DNA of 64,000 bases from Stropharia rugosoannulata (taxonomy: Eukaryota > Basidiomycota > Agaricomycetes > Agaricales > Strophariaceae), in assembly GCA_028532985.1 (NCBI GenBank), contig JANCIK010000003.1, positions 1,994,001 to 2,058,000 of the forward strand, written 5' to 3'. Both the position numbers and the translations under genes were made by a program. Positions within the stretch are counted from its first letter, which is position 1; every line of letters starts with the position of its first letter. Shown here piece by piece: positions 8,244 to 36,778 of this stretch. The notes below the pieces were generated by a model that searched no databases, was not told the origin of the DNA, and saw nothing but the letters and a program-made list of their open reading frames with translations.

Positions 8244-9532
8244 ATGTTGAACGGCAGCGGGATCAAAGTCTTCTCGGGTGCGCATTCTCTGCAGAGCCTG
8301 TTTGCTCAGTCTAACAGCCCTCTAGGAACCAGCCATCCTGAACTAGCCGAGATCATTGCACGACGGTACCTCTCTTCTCTCTCTCATCCCCCATGGTTCT
8401 CAGTCTGGAATGCGATTGACCCCATGCTGCAGCATTGGCCTGCCCCTCTCGAAAGCCGAAATCACCCGCAGCGGCATTGGCGAGACCAACGTCAGGATCG
8501 CAGAGTCGGTCCGTGAGGACGATGTCTATATCATCAACACTGGTTGTGGTGCAGTCAATACAGCTCTGATGGAGCTCTGCATCATGATCCATGCCTGCAA
8601 AATTGCGAGCGCTAAGCGCATTACAGCGGTCATCCCTCTCTTCCCTTACGCACGCCAGGATAAAAAGGACAAGAGCCGAGCGCCTATTACTGCTAAACTT
8701 GTCGCCAACATGATCCAGAAGGCGGGTTGCGACCATGTTATTGTAGGTGGCCCCCAGCAACGGGACTATAGGCTGCTTAATGATTTAAAAAATAGACTAT
8801 GGACCTCCACGCCTCTCAGATTCAGGGTTTCTTTGATGTCCCAGTTGACAAGTGAGTGAACACACTTGCTTCTGGACCGGAATTTTTTTTATTAACGGCC
8901 GCGTCTAGTGTAAGAACCTTGCTGTGCTGATCATGATGCCCGCTGAAGAGCAATGCTTGCAGCTTTACGCAGAGCCCTCTGCGATTTTGTACATCCGGAC
9001 ACACTTCAAGGTGGATGAGGTGGTAATCGTGTCGCCCGATGCGGGTGGCGCTAAACGGTAAGCGATGCCGTGCGGAGCAGGACCAAGCCACTAACTATTC
9101 GGCAGAGCGACATCTATTGCTGACCGGCTCGGCGTGGACTTTGCGCTGTTCCATAAAGAACGAAAGAAGGCTAACGAGGTGTCGCGGATGGTGCTAGTGG
9201 GGAACGTGAAGGACAAGATAGCGATCCTGGTGGACGACATGGCGGATACGTGCGGGACGCTCTGCCTGGCAGCGTCGCACCTGACGGAGGCGGGGGCGAC
9301 GCGGGTGTTCGGGTTTGTGACGCACGGGATCCTGAGCGGGAACGCGCTGGAGACGATCAACGCGAGCAGCCTGGAGAAGCTGATTGTGACGAACACGCTG
9401 CCGCAGCACGGGAACCAGGCGAGGTGCCGGAAGCTGGAGGTGATTGACATAGGCAAGGTGCTGGGGGAGGTGATTCGGCGGAGCCATTACGGGGAGAGTG
9501 TGTCCAAGCTGTTCCACGAGGTTCCGTATTAG
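8244..9532 (+). CDS. PRS: Ribose-phosphate diphosphokinase (PRPP synthetase)
   Basis: Makes 5-phosphoribosyl-1-diphosphate from ribose-5-phosphate and ATP for nucleotide, His and Trp synthesis; cytosolic. Exons as modelled: 8244-8365, 8433-8742, 8796-8851, 8909 (one base), 8963-9057, 9106-9532 (1011 nt, 336 aa, near the family's about 320). Family motifs: IKVFSGAHS at the N-terminus, [32 protein letters not shown] and the PRPP-binding loop [10 protein letters not shown]. The acceptor at 8431-8432 gives [13 protein letters not shown]; the nearer AG at 8402-8403 shifts the frame. Without the one-base exon the junction 8851/8963 breaks the frame; with it the protein reads ...VPVDNLYAEPS, the family sequence. 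The kinase gene follows after 192 bp. Confidence 0.93.
8909..8909 (+). other. Predicted single-nucleotide exon in the PRS gene
   Basis: The base t at 8909 is preceded by ctag (acceptor ending 8908) and followed by gtaaga (donor from 8910). Intron 8852-8908 is 57 nt, with donor gtgagt and branch-like attaac. Intron 8910-8962 is 53 nt, with donor gtaaga, branch-like gctgat and acceptor gcag. Both lengths are normal for this genome. Joining aa (end of 8851), t and cttta gives Asn-Leu-Tyr in the right frame. Confidence 0.75.
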
Positions 9533-9724: not shown

Positions 9725-12700
9725 ATGCAAGGTGACCCCATCCTCCTGCCCCGCCCTCACCCACTGACCCCCTGCAGATGGCCATGGCCAGCCCATACCA
9801 CCCCGTCGCGCCCCCAACACCGTCACCGTCGTCGGCATACCCAGCGTCGCTATCCACAACAACAAGCTCGTCGTCGGCGATGCATCCACTAGTACGTCCC
9901 TCTCCCATCCTGCCCTGTCTCCTGCCAACCGTCCCCAGCCTCGACGCGCTCCTACACCCCAATCAAGGTCCTCGGAAATGGCTCATTCGGCACTGTCTGG
10001 CTCTGCGACTGGCATGGCGTGCTCCCGCCGGGCACCCCGCTCTCGCCCATGCAGTGTGGCGCAACCGCACGCCCTCAGTATGCCGGGAAGCGCCTGGTAG
10101 CCGTGAAGCTCATGAAGCGGCGGTGGGAGGGCGGTTGGGACGAGTGTAAGAAGAACAAGGAGCTCGAGGTGCGCCGCTATGTCTCTCTGACCGTCTATTG
10201 TTTCCCTAACCACCCCCAAGTCTCTGCGTGCAATCCCGTTTCATCCTAATATTATTCCCCTATACGACTTCTTCGTCCTGCCCGACAGTAAAGAGCTCTA
10301 TTTTGTGTTCGAGTCCATGGAGGGCAATCTCTATCATCTCATCAAAACTCGCAAGGGTCGTCCGCTTGCCGGCGGCCTTGTCGCCTCCATTTTTCACCAA
10401 ATCACACTCGGGCTCGATCACATACACACCCATGGTTATTTTCATCGGGACATGAAGCCAGAAAACGTGCTGGTGACCACGACAGGCCTATTCGACTACA
10501 CGTCCGTGTCACCCGTCGCGCCTCCAAATGCAGCGAAGGAGAAAGATGTCGTCGCTATCATCAAGCTCGCGGATTTTGGGTTGGCCAGGGAGACGAACAG
10601 CGCCCCGCCATATACCGAGTATGTCTCGACGCGGTGGTATCGAGCGCCTGAAGTACTGCTGTTCAGCCGCGATTACTCAAATCCTGTCGATATGTGGGCA
10701 TTTGGCACTATAATGGCAGAGCTTGTCAATCTGAAACCCCTCTTTCCGGGGCAAGATCAGTGGGATCAAATTGGCAAAATATGTGACATCCTCGGCGATC
10801 CGTCAGATGGTTATGGTTTTGACAGTAACGGGATACAAATTGGAGGAGGTCCTTGGGTCAAAGGCAACAACCTGGCAGCCTCCAAAGGTTTCCAGTTTGC
10901 CAAGGTAAGTGTCTCCACTCTGAATACATGCATATATGCTAAGCGGCGCACCCAGGTGGCGCCTAAGCACTTGTACTCCCTGTTCGAAGACTTTGTCCCA
11001 GTGTCGCTAATTGATTGCATTCGAGATCTCTTGAGGTACGACCCCGAAAAACGGCTGACAAGTCGTCAATGTCTCGTGCATCCCTACCTCCTAGAGACTC
11101 TACCCCGCAATAATATCCCATTCCCGCCTGGATTGCCATTGGCATTCTCTCCAGTATTTACATCAACCGCTGCTTCGTACGTCAATGGATCACATTCAAA
11201 TCCATCTTTGGTGTCCCCACCCCATGTCGTCCCAACATCCCATTCCCATTCTGCACAAAACTTGCACCACCCACAGCATCATTCCAATACTCATACATCA
11301 CAGCATATACCTTACCCTATTCCTGCGCCCCACTCCCATTTCATCCCTCCCGCCAACCCCATTATTGCGCATAATGATTACCGACAACCTAACGGAACCT
11401 GGTCTGATTCGCAGGGTGATTATCTCATGGATGGTGTTCTCCCGCACGATCAATCACATTCATCTCAACATATCATCGGTCAAAACAGTGAAGGGCAAGG
11501 TTCTCCCATGGCTCAAGACCCGCCGCGCATACCAGAATCAGTGCCGGAAAGTGCTAACACCAAGTCTGGAAGCAAAATTGGGGCGGCTTTGCATTCCAAA
11601 AAGAAAAATGGACGTTGGGCATTGTTTGGGGGTGGAGATAAGTCGCACCATACAACTCTTCCGCCCGTGGATGAATCCAGTCCCGCACTCATTTTCCCAT
11701 CAAGGAAACGCACGCAGTCCTCGAGTACTGACAGATCTTTACGAGACTCTTCGCCTGTCCGCGAAGCGGCTCAAGATTCACGTGATGCCAAGAAAGCGTC
11801 TAGCCTCAATAAGAAGGAGGCTCAACGCCTGCACCGTGAGGCCGAACTTGAGAAACGCAAGTTGGCTGAGAGGAGTCAACGTGAAATGGCTAGGGCAGTC
11901 ATGGACAAGCGACAACGCATTTTGCAGAACAAGGTCGGCGACGATATCACATGGGCACCCAGTCCAGAACAACGGTTGGACGTCATGGAATCGAAGGGGA
12001 AGAATCCCTCATCAGGACCTGTGCGACGTGACCAGAGTAATGGAATTGCGAGCTCAAAGACGCACACCATAGGTGCTGCTGCAAACCACTTTATGATGCC
12101 ACCGGACTCACACCTGTCTCCGCTGGATCGAGAGCGCGAGTGGAGAGGTCCCTCGGAACGGATCGCCAAAGTTCGGCGCCGAGAATACGACGATGACCAT
12201 TCCATGTCATCCTCAGACGTGCATAGCATTAGTCGAATGTCTTCGATATCATTCGCCACGGTGGACAGTGATCCTGGCCCATCGCGATTGCGCAACCGGC
12301 CCAGCTTGTACACCATGAGCAGAATGACTTCTCGGTCATCATTGCGTACTTCGTTCGATGACTTCCCTCCCTCGGCCCGCTCTTCCAATTCTTTCTCGCT
12401 AGAGAGCCAATTAGCGCACGACTTCCGTACGCAAGCATCTGTCGGTTCGCATTTGTCCGGCAGTTTGTCCCCTCCACCATTGCAAATGCTTTCCCTCTCC
12501 CCCACCCTCTCTCCCTCACTTTCTCCTTCACCTCCCTGGATACAAGTACAGCACCAGAAAGAGGATTATTTATCACATACTCAGTCTTCCCCTTACATAT
12601 CCGCTTCGCCCGGATATCATCACACTAAACATCAGGGTTCGCATAGTCCGTCGGATTTCAACGGTCAACTTCCACCTCCTAGTCCTTATGGTGTTCCACT

Positions 12701-12988
12701 AAGCTCGTATGGTTACCCACCAAGTTCCGGACATACGCCGAAATCGGCCAAGTCTGTCATGAATCCTATGTTCAAAGTGGTGAGTGAATAAGATCTTGTT
12801 TAGGTGACTTAGACCCTTATAAATCCGTCCAGCCTCCATTACCGCCACCACCGCTACCGCCACCTCCAAATGGCGACCGAACACCGTCGCCCAATATACT
12901 TCCACCGTTTTCAGAAATGGAGGCAGTCGCAGGAGGTGAACTTCCGCCCTTGTCACCCATGATCTTCACCACACCAGAAGACTCTTGA
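9725..12988 (+). CDS. Ime2/Crk1-like CMGC protein kinase (RCK/MAK family)
   Basis: A Ser/Thr kinase of the MAK/ICK/Ime2 group, which in fungi controls meiosis, mating or morphogenesis. Exons: 9725-9731, 9778-9891, 9939-10168, 10221-10904, 10956-12779, 12833-12988 (1004 aa). Motifs in order: GNGSFGTVW P-loop; VAVKLM with the ATP-site Lys; HRDMKPEN catalytic loop; DFGLARE; activation loop YTEYVSTRWYRAPE, a TEY dual-phosphorylation site as in MAPKs. Some 25 extra residues lie between the P-loop and VAVK. The roughly 600-residue tail is Ser/Pro/His-rich with a charged helix. The last exon (52 codons) is needed: reading through the donor at 12780 adds only VSE and a stop, whereas splicing adds a proline-rich tail ending MIFTTPEDS. 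The exact orthologue is inferred, not proven. Confidence 0.88.
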
Positions 12989-25071: not shown

Positions 25072-28000
25072 TCAGTCCATCCTCCTACGAGAATTAAATG
25101 TTTTGACCACTGTAGCAACTTGATTGAAGAACCATGATTGTGTGACTTTATCAGTTATGAAAACAAATTTGTCATGTTCCCTTCCATTCTTATGAGCAAA
25201 TCTGATACCAGTGTCCTCTACTGTTACACCTTGGATCTGTGTGAAGGGAAGTTCCCAGTCGAGCCGGAGTTTTCTTGACCAAAATGAAAGGACTCGGGTC
25301 GCCGTCAAAAGAACAACATTGTCACCACCAGGGGAATCTTGTGTTTAGTATGTTTAGTGAGGTGACACTTGTATTTTATGTGTTGTACTCACCGACATGG
25401 GCAACGTAAAATTCTTTCCTGTAGGCACCATTATTGAGGTCTTTTAACCAGGCTTGACCAATGGCTTCGCGAGTGGAATAAGGCTGAAATCAAGATAGAT
25501 GATTATTTTGGGGCATGAGTAATGGGAAAGAAAAAGCGACTAACACGAAGGACTGCGTCTGCCGAGACAAGGCGCGGCTAATTTCAATGAAACATGAGTT
25601 GAACATGAGCGTACAAAGATACGTCAAAGATTGAAAACTAACTAATCGGATGCGATCCCGCTGCGGATTGTCGAAAACAGTAGTAGTATTGCGTATCCCT
25701 TGATTATGTGTTCAACATTCGATCACTAAGATAAGAAATATCCTCACCTTCTGATACATTCGAAGCAAGGTCAAAAACCCCGACTACAGGTTTAGTGACA
25801 GCTCTAGATATTAAGTGGCCAATCAATAAGACTCCTTTGGGAAATAGGGAGGGTCCACATACCCAACTAAGCCCTTTCCAACACCTTTGAAAAATCCAAA
25901 TGCACCTTCTGATTCTGCACCTTCGATTGGCTTCATCTGTACAAACCCTATTCAACGCATTTGAAGACAGTAACGGCAGATCTTCTTACGAATACTCCTT
26001 CTACTGCACTGGACACGCTACTGGCAAATGCCTCTCCCCCTGCCGTGACCCCATATCTTGATAGAGATCAGTAAAGGACAATAATAACTAGGAAGTTCAA
26101 ATATATACATAGCATGCCGTGGCCTGTTACGGCGTTGAGTCATTCTCCTCTTTGCTTGGTACTCGGAGTCAAAGGTTGCAGCAGATAAACCTGAAAAAGC
26201 ATTTAGTCCTTGTGTTATGTTTCAGTTGATCAAAATTTTCCAAACCTTTCCCGACACTGCTAGTGAACTTGGTTACACTGTCACTCACTCCAAAGACCGT
26301 CTTCTTAACAAAGCTTGCAGCTCCCTGAGTTACACACAGTCAGAGCGATTAACTCTCAATCATCAGACTTGCCTACCTTTGCTATTCCAATACCTAGCTC
26401 TTTATTGCCGTGGACGACAACACCTTGAAAAGGCTCATAAAATATGTCTGCCACGCCGGAGCTAACATTGGTAAAAAGTCCCACAGGATTACCAATGAAA
26501 TCTGCAGAGCCAAGGACCCGATAAAGCTGACGCAGAATATCCTGTCGATAGTGATATGCAATTCGACTTTGAAGTTCAGATAGCGTTAGCCGCATATCCT
26601 TGATTGCAAGGGCGTTCATCTCCAAAGGGGCATCGTTGATATTCCCGACAGTCATGGTCAATGCATTAACCACCACTGCCAAAGGATTTCTGATACTCAA
26701 TCTGTTTTTATTGTCACTACATTGTTTATTTTAGTAAAATTTTTATAACTTACTTTTCATCGCTATTGACTCTCTCCGTTCGCATGAAAGACAAAGCAAG
26801 CTTTATGGGTTGAAGTTCAAGAACTTCGAAGTACAGCTCCTGCCCAGCTTGATTTATAGAAGGCTCGGGGATGTCATGCGGATGCGCAATCAACACACTA
26901 TGAAGGTAAGAAAATTGTGGGACATCAGGCTCAATTAACTTACTCTGTAGAACCATCTTCCCAGGATGCACCCCGGATCTGTGTTAGATCGTAAATTGCA
27001 AATAGGAGATCTTCGTCGACTTCAATTGTTAATGCTTGCAGTAAAATTGAACAATATTTGATAAAAAGTACACCGTGTTCTGTTTCTACGATGAGCCATC
27101 TCAAGATAATAATAATACGGTAAAAGCTCACCTTGATCTTTCAGCCAGATTACTGACACTTGTACTGTAGGTAGTGCTGCAACAGTAGTTTGTTCTTTGG
27201 TAAGCGGAGTTGGCTGTAATATGACTGGGAAAATAGCTTCATGCAACTGGTTATCGACCTGTAATGTCCCAATTGCAACATTCACGGACTGGGCCACCCT
27301 GCTATCTGCGTACTCGATTTTAATACCAGCCATCGTCGTATATAAGACTTCCACCATTCGTTTGTTAATCAACGATATGCCGATGCCTGCTATGTCAATA
27401 AGGACTGTTATGTTGGGTGGGATTTCCTCTGGAACTGCCTCAAACCCGTCTATATTGCTTGATATGGTATCTTGTCTCGACACGGACAAGGATCCAGATC
27501 TCTGTGGTCGTGGTCTGTAAAGGCTGAGATCCACGTTATAGTTGGTGATACGCAAGATTTGTTTTTGACCAGCAGCACGGACATCCAAAGAGACCGCTCT
27601 GTTCCTTTGCTGATACTGAAAATGTCATCACTTTAGCGATTGCAGCGAACTCTAATTTAAATAGATTTCTTACACTAAATTTGAAAGGGACCAAATTGCC
27701 TATTTCCAGGATATCAATCACTCTGCGTGATTTCCCTATGGACATGACGAGTTTTTTATCCCGTGCGCCAGGATAATCCCAAGCGTAACCCAGTGATGAA
27801 TGAGGCTGTAGATTATAAATGGCTGCTTTATCACGATTTTGCAGATCACGGTCCTCGTCCTAACAGTATCAAAACAGTATTAGAGATTGTTGAGAGATTG
27901 CGCCATAATTACCTCTTGGAAGATGTCAATCGCATAATCACTATCGTTCTCAACGACAAATGGCCAATCTCCTTCTGCCATACAAAGAAATACGAAGATA

Positions 28001-31000
28001 GTCGAACTCTCAACTCGGATGTCAGCCCGTACTAGGTCATAATGTTTAGTGGCACCAGAGCGTGGAAGCCGAAAGTGAACAGATCCGATGTCCTCGATAT
28101 TGATAGGGGGTGACCTGAAATTAAAATAAATTGTATACTGTAGTGGGAAAACGAGTAACAAACCAAATAGCATTTAGTCCTGGATACGCGACGGTCAGAA
28201 GTTTCTCATTTCCTGAGCGGAAAAGTGGAAATATGGAATATTGATTAGGGGGGATTAAAGAGCGTTCCTTGGGAGCGGCTCCATGCTCGCGGAGTGCTAT
28301 CGTTTCGGAAAGGTTGTTCTTGATCAAGAATCGCGGAGTAATCATGATAACTTTAGTCGCTTTGTATTTTCCAACTCCTTCGCTCCATGAAAGGCCGAGA
28401 TGGAGTTCATGGCCTTTCTGGTCTTGTGAGGCGACTACCAACTCGGTTTCTGCAACGGGGGCTTCGAAGGATATCGGCTAATTATAAATATGTGAGTAGT
28501 GTAAGAAGTGCTATGCCAGGAATTGCTACCTTTGACCATGTTGAGTTCCCTACTTTGAATATAAATTCGTGACCCTGTTTTTGTGAGTGGGATACCACTA
28601 ATAACGTAGTAAGAATTTGAATAAGTAGTCCAAATCTTTCAGCTCACAAAATGGAATAGTTGTAGAGGTTGCCTCTTTCGAAAAATAAATAAATAAGGTG
28701 GTGGCAGAGTACTCAGTGATAGAAACGCACCAACAGAGGTGTTACCGGCACAGTCTTTTGAGCCAGTCCTTGTTGCTTTCGTAGACCTCATTAAGAATGG
28801 CATGTTGGTTTTGTTGACGACGATATAGGGACTAAAAATTTGAACTTTAAAAGCTCCGCCTGACTCCGGGTGACGACTTGTAGGGCGAAGTATCAAACAT
28901 TATAAGATCATGTTTATGGATGATGGTCGCACTTACACATAATTAAGCTTGAGGTCCAAGGTCCTGTCTTGCTGGTCACGCAAAGTGAGCTCATACTCAA
29001 TATCAAAATCCGAGTGTCCATCTGTACTGATGATTGTAAATTCACTAGGCTTAAAGACTAGGAAATATTGTTAATGGGCAGTGATATATAAAGAAATACT
29101 CAGCTAACCTGTGTCTTGTACGTTTATGTTCAGTAGTATGAAATGACCGAGTTCCACCGAGTGAATTGGCATAATTCCACCTTTGCGAAGATAGCTTTTC
29201 CAGTTTTGATTGGTGTTTTTGTCATATATGCGATATTCGAGATTGTACGGAAGTAGATTTTCTAACTCAAGAGGAGCCCTCAGTCTCAAGTTAATCTTAG
29301 GGTATTTACTATATAACATTGAATTAATGCTGATGAAATGATGTAACGGCAGGTATAACTTACGATGAAGAAGTATCTGAGCTATCGGTCTGGACCCATG
29401 CTTGCAGCCGGAAGGCAGCTTCTTTTGGATCTGCATGGGGACACTTGATACTAAAACTTTTTCTGGAAATCAAGTCGTCCCAACGTATAGGAGGAGACCA
29501 TTTATATCCGAATCCCTCTTTGAAAATGTGTCAAGCGATGGCGATGAACATGTCCTAAAGAACTCACGATCTGGCTGAATCCGAATCCTGTGTTTCATGA
29601 CAGCTTCAATTGGAAGAGCAAACTCTTGTCCAGGCACAATCTTTTCTAGGGAGTAGACTGGATGTCCTAAATCATCAACAAGCATCACTTCCAGTGGATA
29701 TAGCGTTAGGTTTTCTACTTTGTAAGTAGAACGAATGGTAACAATTTTCGTATTGTCGATGACTTTGATTTCGCAGAGTAGCCTGTCCGGATATTTTTGA
29801 ATTCGTGGGCGCAGTGAAAAGACATACTCTCCTTCACGGTCGACAGGCACACCACGTAATTGTTCCCAAGACCCCTCTGGGAACTGTATCCCAATGTTAT
29901 GCTGCCCTGAAGAAACATGCTGTAGTCGCAATGAGGTTATGCGCATTACAATTCATGAGGAAATTACCTCTCGCATGGTCTTCCAGTCATCGAATCTCCA
30001 ATCAACAACCTGGTTCTGTAGAACCTTGACTGCTTCGGTGTCTTTTCGTTGAGACACGCTGTCTAGGTCAGACCATATCAAGATTGGTGCTCCTGTCTGG
30101 TTACGTATACGGTATGGAGCATACGATCCCCGGGCTTTCTGAAGGACGGCTTTCCCTTCTCGGTTCCAAGTGTTCAGGGTAGTAAGAGCAAGCTCCATGA
30201 AAGTGGTACTGATGTTGAGATCCAGGCGGTCTGTCGCTGTTAATGTTAAGTCCATTCCTCCTGTAGGGCTTTCCTTCATCATCTATGACAATATTGATAT
30301 ATATACATCAGCATTAGCAGAAAGTATTTACATACCTCTATTTTAGAGGACCATGGATCAATTACTAATGAAGTCAAATATCAAGAATCAGACAACGATT
30401 GACGAGATAAGAGCGAGTCATACGCGGCTCCCAGTGTGAGTTGGTCAAGTTCCAGTATGTTATGACCGTAGTAATTGTTAGAGTTGAGCGTAGCTTGTGT
30501 TCCCATTCAGATAAGTAAAATGTAAGTAGTAATCAGCTTACCTGTGCAGACCAGTCTTTAGCACCGATGATAAAGGGTTTGATTCTGAAATGAAGCATTG
30601 GCTGTTCATGTAGGTCCCCAATAAGTATGAGCCTGATTCCATCTAAAGAAGCTTTGAGCTAGTTTTTGAAGAGTTAATCCATATCTTCATGTAGGTATGT
30701 ATTGATTTACCTGTTCCTTTGACATTAAAACGGTCGCTTTAGCGTCAGATTGGGACTGTGTTCTTTCATTGGCAGATGTTGATGGAAGCATCAGTGTTCG
30801 GTGTGTGGAACGCGCAGAATGTATGTCTGTTGTGTTTTGTTGCTCCACGGATGCCTGGGATTGTCCATATCTTTCTACGGCCTTGTTGATGATAGAAGTT
30901 ATCAATATAATATCACGGTATGATGCACGAAAGATGACGGGCTTGGCGGAAATTTCTATGCTGGTCGTTTGATGTGACGAGGAGGTTCGACTGTCAAGAG

Positions 31001-34000
31001 AGAACGTAAGGTCGACATCATCCAAGAAGCGTACGCGTTCAGTAGATTTCCCCATCTTCGTGAGCGACATCCCTAAACGGTCTATTGTAAGAGCAAAAAT
31101 TCCCTAAGATAGTGTAAGCATCGTTAATCACAAGTAACGAACGACATACCTGTTGTGAAAAAAGAATTTTGTTTATATACAATTGAATTGCCTGGGATTC
31201 AGCGTCTTCGTCATTTTCAAGCACGCTGATGGAGACATCATGTAAATCAACTCTGAAATTGATGCCACCTTGTTGCTTTCCTCGAGACAAATCCGCAGTG
31301 GCTGATCCATCACTCGATTCTGTATGGTTTGTATCGGTAAATGCACTCGTGAAAAATTCGAGTAAAGATATAACCGGATCGACTGCAAAAATAACTTGCG
31401 GAGAATCAACCGTCAAAATGGCTAATGACGGCCCTTGGTCGTTCGCCATCGTGTACAATAGCATGAATTGATTGCGATGGTGCTGAGCGGCAGGGATTAG
31501 CTCCCGGAACCTAGTGTGACCTGGTCGAGTATTGCTCATTGTGAAAGAGCGCAATATTAGTTGAGCTTCGCCAGCACCGTTTGATAGAAGTTTGAAACGC
31601 ATAGTGTTATCGTTCAGAGCGAAGCGGACGATTCCATGGTCCTTTAGCTGGGGCTCGGATGTACTATGTAGATCATATAAGTGCAGTTTGACAGTTTTCA
31701 CTGATAAGACCAAATCTATAGCGGTCCAAATCCGCGGAGATATCGAGCGCAATTCTGGCTTGAGGTGGATGTCCATTGGTGGTGTATTCCGTACTGCAGC
31801 GGGCGTATTGCTTATAGCATGGTCAGTCTCGGGTACACCCAAGAAAACACGAGGTATCGATTCTGCAAGCCTGATTAATAGACAATACTGGACTTGAGTT
31901 AAGTGCAGTTTTATGTCCGATATCTTGACTGCGATCTGGTAGTAAAAAGCCTTAGTAATTCAGTAACATCAGGATAGGTGCCGCATAAGCTTACTTGAGA
32001 ATCTGGAAGATCGGTATCCTGCATTCGATTTATACCGCTGGTCTGAACTATATCTGCGACGATGTCTATGTCATCAATCATTTTGAGTGTGGAAGGTTCA
32101 CCACTGTGGAAAAGCGTTGATACAAGCTGTATTCCGCGTAGACTAGCTGATATACGGTTGACAAACATTTCTGAAGTGTTGCGGGCATCAATTTGTCCGA
32201 GGCGAAGGATAAGAGTGTCGAGTGAAGAAGCCGGATCGGAGGGGAATATTACTATAGGCGTTTTGATAGATATATCGAACTTCATCCTTTCGATTTCAGA
32301 TGCACGCTGCACAGCAACCTGTGTCGCAGCATCATACAAGCCTTTAAGTTTCGCTAATTTAGAAATGAAAAGATATAAGTCATGTAGAGGTTGCTCGATG
32401 AAGTGGAATTTTATCGATGCTGCATCCAATTGAATCAATGATTTGACTCCAGTGTAATTCTCTTCTTCGGGGTCGAATGTTTGGTAGGTAAAGGACGCAA
32501 AGTTCTTCCCTTCTATAGACATTAATTGTCCGAAGTCACCCATGACAGTGTACTTTTGATTGTCATTCACCAACGTCAAATTCCCGAGATGTCCTGAGAC
32601 TCTGAGAGTCCTAGGTCTAACCAACACAGATATATCTGCAGTCGAGAGCGATAGCGTAGCCAACTTCACCGAGTCGTTGCTTATATTAACTGTGCATGTC
32701 ATTCGATAAGGTAGATTAACACTCATGTAAATTGATTACGCACCTTGAACACCCTCTAATTTTACTAACACTCGTATTTTACCCTCTGGTTCTGTTGCAG
32801 TGTCTAACCTCTCGATGTTGCCTGTGACTTGTTGGCCGATGTTCGACTGAGTGTTAAAGTCCGATGGAACAAATGTTGACATTATGAAATCATATAAGGC
32901 AACAACAGGTTCGGGAGCGGCATGGAAGACGAGCGTTGTCATTTTGACATCGACGTTTTGGTCAATTCCTTCGTATGCCGAAAAGAAATCCGGTGAGTCC
33001 TTCTGTACTCTTGAATAAGAGATCTTTAGCAGCTCCTGACCACTTAAAACGCCGCGTTCTTGAGTTGATATGAAGCACAAATCTGACTCCCCAGGCTGTA
33101 CTACATTCATCGCAATCGAGCTGCCAAATTGTTAATGATCCACCCTTGCGAAGTAGAGTGTATAGACCTACTGTAGCTTAACATCAACATGCATATCATA
33201 TTTCGCCAAGGAAAAAGACAAGGAAAATCCGTCAAGATGTAGATCTCCCAACTTCTTTTCAGAACCGTCAGGCGTGGATTTCGAAAGTACTGCACAGAGC
33301 CTGTCAACTTTGAAATCCAACTCGAAGATATGCTGGCGAAGTTCTGGTGGCTATCATATGTATCAGAATTCTGCCTTTTTAGGATAAAGAATAACATGTC
33401 TTACGGCCACAGTGCCATCTTCCGCTTCAAAAAATTGTTCTTCTTGCGTGTGCGGAGCGTTATCGTCTATTGCATTGTCGGCGTCAATATCATCCTCATC
33501 AATGTTGTATTCAAGACCATGTTGGCCAAATAGCTTGTTTGGAAGTTGGAATGATGTGGGAGGATTTGAAGTGGAAACTAATGTTCTTGAGCTGTCTTGA
33601 GAGTCAAAACGGGGAATGCAAACATCGACGAGACGCATGAGGGCCTTGTATTTGCTGTCTGATACATTGACCTGCAGTGAGGGTAAACTTCCAGAGACTT
33701 TGACTTGGGCCAAATTAACTGCACTGGGCACAATTGATTTATCAATTTGTAGATCGAAACTAATTCTCTCCAGCACATGGAGCACTCCATTGACGTCGGC
33801 AGAGAGGGCTGCCCGACAAACTTCCAGATTATCGCCAATTATGAACTAGTTCTGCGTCAGTATATTATAAAGCCGTGAACTATATAACAGACCTGGGCAT
33901 CCTTCAGGTGGAGCAGTAATTTGTCATACATGAGTGATTCAAGATTCTTGAAGTCGGCGTCGGTGTACTTCGCATTTCGTTTCTGATGAATTGTCATAAT

Positions 34001-36778
34001 AGCCTCCTTCGGAACTAAGTGGCTTTCAATCGCAATATGACCGGCGTCAACGATGAGGTGTTTGCAGTCATTGGTCGTCACGCTAATGCAATACCCATTT
34101 AATCTCTTGAGTAGATTAAAATAGGAAGGCTTGCTTACTCTTCAGGTATAATTATGATTGGTGCATTGAGATCCATTTGAATATCAATGGTCTTATGCGT
34201 CTGAAGGGCATACTCCAAGCCGGCTCGGGTCTCCCTGCGTAAGCCTTCCAAAGTTTGACTAGCAGCGCTCTATTACTCATGAGTGCCGGAAAACATATAA
34301 GTAGAAGGTTTAAACACACCAACAACGCTTCCACCGATTCCAATTGGCTTTCAGGAGGCTTGAAAAATCGATACACTGCCTCTACGTACCCTTTGTGATA
34401 AATGATTTCCATGTGGCGCATACGGACAGTTAAAGCACTATCTGCACGGTTGTCAAGCGGGTTACTTTCGAACTTTACAAAGAAGAAAGGATTCGTATTG
34501 TCCATTAAGTCAATGGACACGTCCCCTTGCTCGATATCCGTTTTGACATGGACAATTTGAGGATACAACGAATTTGTCGTTGTCCCATCAAATACCCGGA
34601 AGCCATCGAGGGATATAGATGCCTCAAGATTGTCGGGGCGCTGGATAACATTAGCTTGAAACACATCAAAGACCACAGACATGACTTGTTTGTTCGTCGT
34701 ATGCGGATCACTCTTCAACGTGAAAGAGCCCTTGTCTAATTTGGCTGCAATTCTCATTTTCAAAGATTCGCGCGGGATTTGCAATGCATTCACTACTGCT
34801 GCCTTTTCGTCGTAGTCGAGCACGTCATATAATTGCTTCCGTTGTTCTTCCGTCATCTCGCCGTTGAAACTTGCATCGTCCTGTTCTGCTTGTGAATTTG
34901 ATGTGCCCCAAAGCCAGCCAACCCATCCCTGCTTTTGAGGTTGTTGCTGCTTCCTCTCTGCTTCGATTTTTTTACGCAAAGCAAGATCCTTTTTTAATTT
35001 AGATCGTGCGATGGACCGGTAGAAACGAATGTCTTCGTAGGAAAGCTTGCGCTCCAGGTCTTCGTACATTTGTAGATCCTATGATTAGACGGCATTTTAA
35101 AAAGAGAGATATCATTTGAGAAATCTTGTGACGAACCTTTCCAGTTAAAGGATTGGCCAGCTTTCTCTGGAAAAGCGAAACATAAACCTTCCGATCATCC
35201 CTTCTTTGAGCAAAGTATTGCCACGTCCATTTCTTGTTTCTTTGGCGTATTCCTTCAACGATAGCAGTCGCCGCGAACTGTAATCGGGCCCTTGCAACAT
35301 TTGAAGAGAAGGCGTCATCCGATGGACGATATTGCGCATACTTGAGAAAAAGATTGAGTAAAAGGTAGAATTTGTACATTCATTTTCCAAACACACCTGA
35401 TGCTTCCGTAGATAGACATGATACATATCAATAAGAGAAATGACATCCCGGTACTGATGATCGTCAAGAATAACACCGATCTCTTCAAATAGCAGATGGA
35501 TGTCAAACTGTGGCGTGTTCTTGTCAATTTTGTGGTTTACGATTACCTGCAAAGATTACGCCTGATTGGAATAAATCTTGAGAAGGAGAACAGGTACTCA
35601 CTCGACCTTCCCCGGAAACGGGCTTGAGGACGTATTGGTGTTGTATATCATCTTTACTATGCGAGATCTACCAAGGGTATCAACGTCTGTCGTTTAGAAA
35701 CGCCACTTTTAAGTTACCATAGAAGAAAATATTCTGATTGATTCTGCGGTGGGTAGACCGGCAATGCTAGGGGAGTCTGTGTCAAAATATAGGGCTAACG
35801 ACTGCAGTTGGGCCAACTAAAAAATAGAATAAAAAGATCAGTAGCTATCTGACAATGCCAAAACGATAGCGCCTACTTTATGTATTGCTCCAGCAGTACT
35901 TTCGATGAAAGCAGGCTCCCACTGATCATTGACCGAAACAGCCGTAAATCCAGCTAATGTTATACCAGCAGCGAAAGGATGCTAAGCCAGTAAACTTTCG
36001 TCAAACCAATCGTTCATTTACATATAATTTTGAACTTTACCCCTGGCACGCTCATGTTATCTTCGTATCTGATATGTATATTTTTGATCGTCACTTGAAC
36101 GTTGTTAATAACCTTCGTTATGAGCGACTGCACAAGGCCCTGGTTTTGGGCTGACGAGCTGTCTTGAATGTTCAATAAATTTAGTAAATAAATTGTGAAT
36201 GGCGATATGCGATTTTTGATTACCTGAATCTGTTGCCACATCCTGTACGTGCAAAAGCTCAGCGTTTTCTAGGCGCTCCATTTTTGCTGCTTGTGCTCGG
36301 GCGTTATCTTCCTGTGCGTCCGTATTCGAAGGCGGGGAGGGTACTACAAGGAGGTATATGTCTTCGATCATAATTTCGACGGGCTGGTTTCCCAAGTTCA
36401 TCCAATGAAGTGACAGCGTGAATTTCCCCAAGTTGCCTAAACATATCTCATGAGCTAAGAGAACCGCGTAAGAAGATAGAATCTAGCCTTCCAACACATC
36501 AACAGGTAGCTGGAACTTGTCTAATGCACTCTTCTTCAGTTTTACATTGAGTAGCGTCAATTGCCCTAACTTCAGTAGGTAAACCTTGCGCCAATATATA
36601 TGTGCTCTGACTAACCTTGAGCTATTCCATAGTTGACTTGATTCAAATCGAGATTTTCAACATATGGTGCGAGGATACGATTAAAAATCTGGAGAGATAA
36701 ATATGTACAAGTGCGTCGAAATAACTAGGTACTACTCACAACATTTAGAACCTCCTTCCCGGGATCGAGCCACCACAT
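25072..36778 (-). CDS. VPS13: VPS13 bridge-like lipid-transfer protein
   Basis: A very long rod with a hydrophobic groove that carries bulk phospholipid between organelles at contact sites. The gene spans 11.7 kb with some thirty short introns; the product is about 3,000-3,200 aa (not counted exactly; yeast 3,144). It starts at 36778 with [12 protein letters not shown] (36778-36740). The second exon is 36688-36616 ([19 protein letters not shown]) and the third ends at 36488 ([15 protein letters not shown]). Together these form the chorein N-terminus, followed by the extended chorein region, e.g. [17 protein letters not shown]. The middle (about 31900-27000) encodes the repetitive groove and the VAB/SHR-BD adaptor-binding region. 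Near the 3' end lies [12 protein letters not shown] (about 25860-25895), then a PH-like C-terminus ending FNSRRRMD. No frame break was noticed, but not every junction was checked. Confidence 0.92.

Follow-up and report, generated by a model that had tools for sequence, protein, structure and literature searches.

A gene encoding a PRPP synthetase in Stropharia rugosoannulata raises the question of how the reading frame is carried across a 111-nt gap that separates two of its coding segments. The gene lies in the window, i.e., the whole stretch of 64,000 nucleotides analysed here from a genome of 48 Mb in 20 contigs, and its coding sequence occupies positions 8244-9532 (+). When position 8851 is joined directly to 8963, the message is one base short, the product reads VDNFTQSPL..., and a stop appears at codon 168, confirming the frame shift reported in the initial annotation of this DNA. 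That annotation proposed that the gap comprises two complete introns of 57 and 53 nt, each with its own donor and acceptor, and that a single nucleotide is kept between them. Both the coordinates and the letters of this arrangement proved exact, and the gene model is as follows:

8244..8277 (+): exon 1, with the ATG at 8244; this start agrees with the start of the protein P0001
8326..8365 (+): exon 2 of the spliced model
8433..8742 (+): exon 3 of the spliced model
8796..8851 (+): exon 4, 56 nt, whose 3′ end (...GTT GAC AA) falls inside the Asn codon equivalent to N144 of human PRPS1
8852..8908 (+): predicted intron A, 57 nt, GTGAGT...TCTAG; donor at the 81st and acceptor at the 23rd percentile of predicted introns
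8892..8896 (+): branch-like TTAAC of intron A, 14 nt from the intron end; a common motif, and weak evidence
8909..8909 (+): predicted exon 5, the single nucleotide T, third base of AAT (Asn); called from the frame, the motif, the ab initio choice and the Asn of relatives
8910..8962 (+): predicted intron B, 53 nt, GTAAGA...TTGCAG; acceptor at the 34th percentile
8927..8931 (+): branch-like CTGAT of intron B, 33 nt from the intron end; weak evidence
8943..8947 (+): alternative branch-like CTGAA of intron B, 17 nt from the intron end
8963..9057 (+): exon 6, beginning CTT TAC GCA GAG CCC...
9106..9532 (+): exon 7, stop codon TAG included

In order, the introns measure 48, 67, 53, 57, 53 and 48 nt, the fourth and fifth being those that flank T8909. 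The letters around the gap run ...gttgacaa(8851) / gtgagt...tctag / t(8909) / gtaaga...ttgcag / ctttacgc(8963), in which one base of a coding gene is bounded by AG and GT (TCTAG/T/GTAAGA). The claim that this base alone restores the frame and the conserved DNLYAEP was borne out: T8909 gives the codon AAT (Asn) in VDNLYAEP, the coding sequence amounts to 963 nt (960 coding plus the stop), and the 320-aa protein has its sole stop at codon 321, frame and motif being kept only upon inclusion. The flanking introns are complete and of usual size (57 and 53 nt, median 54), with sites within the range of the predicted set. The predicted spliced product at the junction is ...GTTGACAA T CTTTACGC, and the equivalence of its Asn codon to human N144 was counted along the alignment to 4lyg. 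It is considered almost certain, from these features and from the relatives described below, that T8909 is a constitutive exon of one nucleotide between two ordinary short U2-type introns, providing the wobble base of the VDNLYAEP Asn in a PRS3-type PRPP synthetase.

A single further PRS locus was found in the genome (L026, G000:C4:3306500-3309500). It carries FFDIPVDNLWSEP in one open frame without an intron at the Asn codon, and the intron pair is therefore not common to the paralog.

The same structure was selected, unprompted, by a gene finder self-trained on 264 kb of this genome, in which 56 genes and 450 introns were kept and no minimum exon length was imposed. It placed exons at 8796-8851, 8909-8909 and 8963-9057, and of the 396 internal exons predicted, T8909 alone was 1 nt long, while four were of at most 3 nt. 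The program merged the PRPP synthetase with its neighbours and read through intron 1, and its gene borders were left unused. Among these neighbours, a gene for a protein kinase (Pfam PF00069, E 8.3e-38) occupies about 9792-12988 (+) of the window and begins shortly past the PRPP synthetase stop. The gene finder also ignores stops in codons split by introns. A 2-nt exon that it proposed at 30336-30337 (-) creates such a split stop and was taken as an artefact; it belongs to a large multi-exon gene at 25704-36778 (-) of the window, in which a VPS13 N-terminal region was recognised (Pfam PF12624, E 1.6e-29).

The gap had been described as about twice the usual intron length, and the predicted introns agree: their median was 54 nt, and 14/450 were at least 111 nt long in this self-trained 264-kb set, which includes the introns of this gene. 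An intron of 111 nt would thus be unusual, yet possible. As for the branch-like sites that had been pointed out, they are indeed present in both introns, but they carry little weight, as a YTRAY motif occurs 7-45 nt from the end in 245 of the 450 predicted introns.

All GT-AG and GC-AG joins of 20-230 nt that keep the frame were then enumerated for a single intron, and the donor needed by each of the 23 solutions ranks no higher than the 1.1 percentile. One rival of this kind is a 119-nt intron running from the upstream donor CCA/GTTGAC (8844) to 8963, by which Val-Asp-Asn would be deleted. It keeps the frame and yields a protein of 317 aa, but its donor stands at percentile 0.0, below every donor of the predicted set, and the residues it removes are kept in yeasts and in human PRPS1. 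When two introns were allowed, 21 solutions were obtained, with the 8909 model at the top (score 16.05). Ranks 2-5 kept the 1-nt exon and differed from it in the acceptors, and solutions lacking the T8909 exon reached at most 5.34. Three sites of the 8909 model are below the median, namely acceptor A (23rd percentile), acceptor B (34th) and donor B in its unspliced context (28th); no arrangement listed other than that with T8909 has both unexceptional donors and acceptors and the conserved motif unbroken.

The arrangement goes beyond chance expectation. Of random 111-nt stretches of pooled intron interior, about 2.4% contained an AG-Y-GT with 45-70 nt on either side. An equally good donor in addition was seen in 0/200,000 draws, which were resampled from one pooled stretch and are not independent.

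The strongest evidence comes from comparison, for which the residues that relatives carry at the junction, i.e., between FFDVP (or FFDIP) and LYAEP, were examined. Two protein searches, each taking the best 120 of about 8,000 matches, returned 173 distinct proteins, 82 of them NCBI-named and 91 anonymous and contig-derived, so that all counts apply to close relatives of the queries. The best-scoring match was from Pholiota conissans (Agaricales, Strophariaceae), with 94% identity over the 193-residue query, among the best 120 of about 8,000. Among the matches listed, the anonymous proteins read VDN in 90/91 cases and VDS in one, whereas 76/82 of the named records were anomalous at the Asn codon. 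The single VDS protein, P0018 (VDSLYAEP), is the only one of the 91 contig-derived proteins without Asn; its Ser may stem from a genuine AAY to AGY substitution or from an error in sequencing. The difference between named and anonymous proteins corresponds to a Fisher p of 6e-41, a value that ignores relatedness and shared pipelines and serves as a guide only; the named records are not independent, as they come from shared annotation pipelines and include some species twice.

By form, the 82 named records comprised VDN (6), VDK (30), VDKW (12), VDKY (5), VDKC (2), deletion of VDN (14) and other forms (13). The last were VDNVSD (twice) and, once each, VDNVCN, VDNVS, VDNVSAPSFHL, VDNLYYS, FGYS, RGYYS, VDNWSMLNIRPQ, VDKLLFQ, two long replacements of 24 and 22 residues, and VDKCYAEP of Rhodonia. 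The irregularity is confined to this point of the protein: relative to P0002, indels were observed at the junction in 45/82 named proteins and elsewhere, as a control, in 4/82, while the anonymous proteins had none at the junction (0/91) and seven of them had some elsewhere.

The discrepancy persists between nearly identical proteins. With the junction masked, the VDK model of Postia placenta is 100% identical to P0108 (113 contigs, VDN), and the same holds for the VDK model of Pleurotus ostreatus and P0065 (VDN), and for the RGYYS model of Leucocoprinus leucothites and P0037. An anonymous relative at least 95% identical outside the junction was available for 29 of the 76 anomalous records, and all 29 of these best matches read VDN. 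Moreover, records from one species disagree: two strains of Dichomitus squalens read VDK and VDKW, two records of Abortiporus biennis carry VDKY and a 22-residue replacement, and two of Rhodonia/Postia placenta (synonyms) carry VDK and VDKC.

The anonymous contigs would most simply be transcripts, judging from their shortness and their uninterrupted coding compared with the six introns of the gene described here. The longest contig was of at most 2,000 bases for 88/91 proteins, the remaining three measuring 2,297, 2,976 and 6,274; a contig of at most 2,000 bases was combined with 319-322 residues in 72/91, and 16/91 proteins were shorter than 318 aa.

These comparisons bear on the single-intron rivals. 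The Val-Asp-Asn deletion predicted by the 119-nt intron does appear in 14/82 named records among the matches listed, but it was seen in 0/91 contig-derived proteins, including the closest listed relatives of the deleted models (93.8-98.4% identical), and this reading is considered highly improbable. A second possibility is one intron of 110 nt with a non-canonical boundary, in which G8852 or G8962 is kept and the codon becomes AAG (Lys). VDK without an inserted residue, found in 30/82 named records among the matches listed, would fit this structure; it requires, however, a TG donor or a CA acceptor next to the strong GTGAGT donor, Lys was read in none of the 91 contig-derived proteins listed, and the contig-derived proteins of Postia and Pleurotus, otherwise identical to the VDK models, have Asn. 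Such an intron has next to no chance of being real.

The reading of T8909 as an exon of its own offers an account of the anomalous records themselves. For a predictor unable to place a one-base exon, few ways out are left. In the window, the base that can be borrowed from either side is G, and AA plus G gives Lys (VDK); the +4 donor, the usual alternative of a GTNNGT site, leads to AAG TGA, a stop; and the -8 donor loses Val-Asp-Asn, leaving 317 aa. VDK and the VDN deletion, the predictable wrong fixes, are both common among the database models, and 13 of the 14 VDN-deleted models are of 317 aa. In general, use of a +4 donor leaves the frame intact and places one extra residue behind Lys, GTGAGT and GTAAGT donors excepted. 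In this way, VDKW, VDKY and VDKC would correspond to the donors GTGGGT, GTAYGT and GTGYGT directly after GACAA. VDNVSD, VDNVCN, VDNVS and VDNVSAPSFHL may contain T (or C) and, behind it, a donor of the form GTNAGN or GTNTGY read as codons, and the last codon of the FGYS, RGYYS and LYYS inserts could be AG-T; these two patterns would each fit an AG-Y-GT at this place. Most simply, the odd residues at the junction are artefacts of the gene models, and this pattern of failure suggests that AG-Y-GT may be conserved at the nucleotide level across the relatives.

A chimeric query was used to reach beyond Agaricomycetes and returned 35 new records, of which 34 read VDN: 14 named yeasts (14/14) and 20 anonymous proteins, the latter kept out of the 91 counted above. 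The remaining one, from Sphaerobolus (Geastrales), read VDK and raised the count to 77 anomalous records among 83 named ones from Agaricomycetes. The six named records with VDN are from Laccaria, Moniliophthora, Marasmius oreades, Taiwanofungus (two) and Somion; in these, the 1-nt exon may have been modelled correctly, or one intron may have been lost. They are listed as P0022, P0093, P0106, P0115, P0120 and P0155, and Laccaria and Moniliophthora also have lgn contigs.

The same counts weigh on a further explanation, a sequencing or assembly error by which a base is missing from exon 4 or 6 and the gap is a normal single intron (111 or 112 nt). A one-base indel would account for the frame in this assembly, and introns of at least 111 nt do occur (14/450 predicted). 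However, an error private to one assembly does not explain why 77/83 named Agaricomycete records are anomalous at the same codon, and it leaves the placement of AG-T-GTAAGA within the gap as a coincidence (about 2.4% for the loosest match). The initial annotation had named such an error as what could overturn its reading; it fares badly, and hardly any credence is given to it. The proposed 1-nt exon, in turn, gained support from its rank among the two-intron solutions, the unprompted choice of the gene finder and the VDN of the contig-derived relatives.

Asn in the contig-derived proteins, together with the failure of most genome-based models at the same codon, indicates that the extra base is very probably carried in the mRNA and that the one-base exon is probably widespread in the class Agaricomycetes. 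One anomalous record was checked for its taxonomy in each of Agaricales, Boletales, Polyporales, Russulales, Amylocorticiales, Jaapiales and Geastrales. As the Geastrales record belongs to Phallomycetidae, the data suggest that the one-base exon predates the split of that subclass. Among the chimeric-query matches there were no named Tremellomycetes, Pucciniomycotina or other lineages by which the origin could be dated. A search for fungal genomic copies of the gene gave 15 loci in genome contigs, all bacterial, and two loci in viral contigs, 43% identical.

With regard to mechanism, introns A and B would be recognised by intron definition and removed singly. The footprints of U2AF at acceptor A and of U1 at donor B overlap when the two sites are one base apart. 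Since a single base stands between the AG of intron A and the GT of intron B, U2AF and U1 would be unable to sit together, which implies removal one at a time. Intron A would probably leave first, having the stronger donor (81st vs. 28th percentile) and a T-rich stretch beside its branch-like site. Its removal would change the context of donor B from AGT/GTAAGA to AAT/GTAAGA, raising its score from the 28th to the 50th percentile. Whichever intron is gone, the single base would have become part of an exon of normal size, and the second step would be ordinary splicing.

Errors in this pathway would be exposed, as in-frame stops arise at codon 168 when T8909 is skipped, at codon 148 when intron A is kept, and at codon 154 when intron B is kept; the mis-spliced forms would be filtered, or could be used as a control. 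Because skipping and the retention of either intron all put a stop in frame, the one-base exon could have been kept across Agaricomycetes as a dose control, in which the share of inclusion sets the amount of PRPP synthetase, perhaps in response to nucleotide levels, and NMD removes the rest. This is a speculative and rather unlikely proposal.

Two known phenomena resemble the proposed stepwise removal. Stwintrons are known in fungi, as stated in the part of the literature available, and those of Ascomycota are likewise composed of two short U2 introns in one intervening sequence that is removed by consecutive reactions. According to such a reading, one intron would interrupt a splice site of its partner and the mRNA would retain none of the bases between the two, and adjacent short introns removed stepwise would look alike. 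Unlike the stwintrons of Ascomycota, which keep no base between their units, the PRPP synthetase keeps one coding base: if the full 111 nt are excised, the frame is lost and a stop arises at codon 168, and the Asn and intact frame of the relatives need one base to be retained. The nested structure is thus given a negligible probability, and the gap was not classed as a stwintron, a stwintron being an external intron with a splice element split by an internal one, both excised completely. Ratchet points are exons of length zero within long introns. Recursive splicing at these points shares with the present case the stepwise removal and an AG and a GT that almost touch; in a ratchet point, however, the acceptor abuts the donor and no base is kept, whereas here AG and GT are separated by one base that the codon needs, and both introns are short. 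The gap was not assigned to this class either.

Exons of one nucleotide have been published before. In Arabidopsis, a 1-nt exon of APC11 was tested with constructs, according to the part of the report available (PMC4674806), and the available part of a 2022 study describes, for APC11 and VPS55, 1-nt microexons that are conserved in land plants and missing from annotations (PMC8831610). As far as these sources go, the plant cases share with the PRPP synthetase the AG before and the GT after one base, the requirement of the frame, the absence from annotation, conservation over a large clade and a place in housekeeping genes; in the plant genes, reads map properly only after the exon is modelled. 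By the same partial accounts, the Arabidopsis APC11 exon differs in lying within an intron region of 422 nt, in another gene and kingdom, as opposed to two introns of 50-60 nt, and the plant exons have been tested with RNA (that of APC11 also with constructs), whereas the PRPP synthetase exon is predicted from sequence and comparison.

Closer in kingdom is the 1-nt exon of Fusarium CYP621A, described by its authors, in the part of the 2026 report available, as the second case to be found, and the first among fungal genes (PMC12940212). From what that part conveys, both cases are fungal, the base falls inside a conserved motif, database models are wrong there, and an intron of about double the median gave the clue (for CYP621A, 139 nt with a median of 56). 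The same source places CYP621A in Ascomycota, with G in a Gly codon, orthologs in Fusarium and Nectria, and a product that is a rarely expressed P450; the PRPP synthetase, by comparison, is a core enzyme in which the base is T (in the window) and belongs to an Asn codon, with an apparent spread throughout Agaricomycetes. In mitochondria, exons of one nucleotide flanked by group II introns have been described as well, as the accessible part of one report indicates (PMC12308204). No nuclear 1-nt exon of a basidiomycete was found in the open literature searched, which for fungi, mushrooms and microexons comprised the top 20 of 1,781 and the top 15 of 953 papers, and T8909 is possibly the first one in Basidiomycota. 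One-nucleotide exons as such are already on record in plants and Fusarium; what is new here is the PRPP synthetase case with its unusual breadth.

Few single-nucleotide exons have been reported, and this one sits in a core enzyme. It would also imply a silent annotation error across the class, most of the named records listed carrying a wrong, missing or invented residue at the Asn codon. The misannotated residue adjoins the allosteric ADP site of a textbook enzyme: in humans, N144 is next to D143, whose backbone contacts ADP in PRPS2, as given in the available part of a structural source (PMC10227994), and N144S is named among the PRPS1 changes in relapsed leukaemia in the portion available of another (PMC7403961). 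Agaricales, Boletales, Polyporales, Russulales, Amylocorticiales, Jaapiales and Geastrales, at the least, seem to share an exon of the T8909 type. The six named records with VDN provide natural tests of intron loss at a 1-nt exon. Many genomes and transcriptomes are thus available for asking how the spliceosome handles sites one base apart, in which order the two introns are removed, and for what reason such an exon would be selected.
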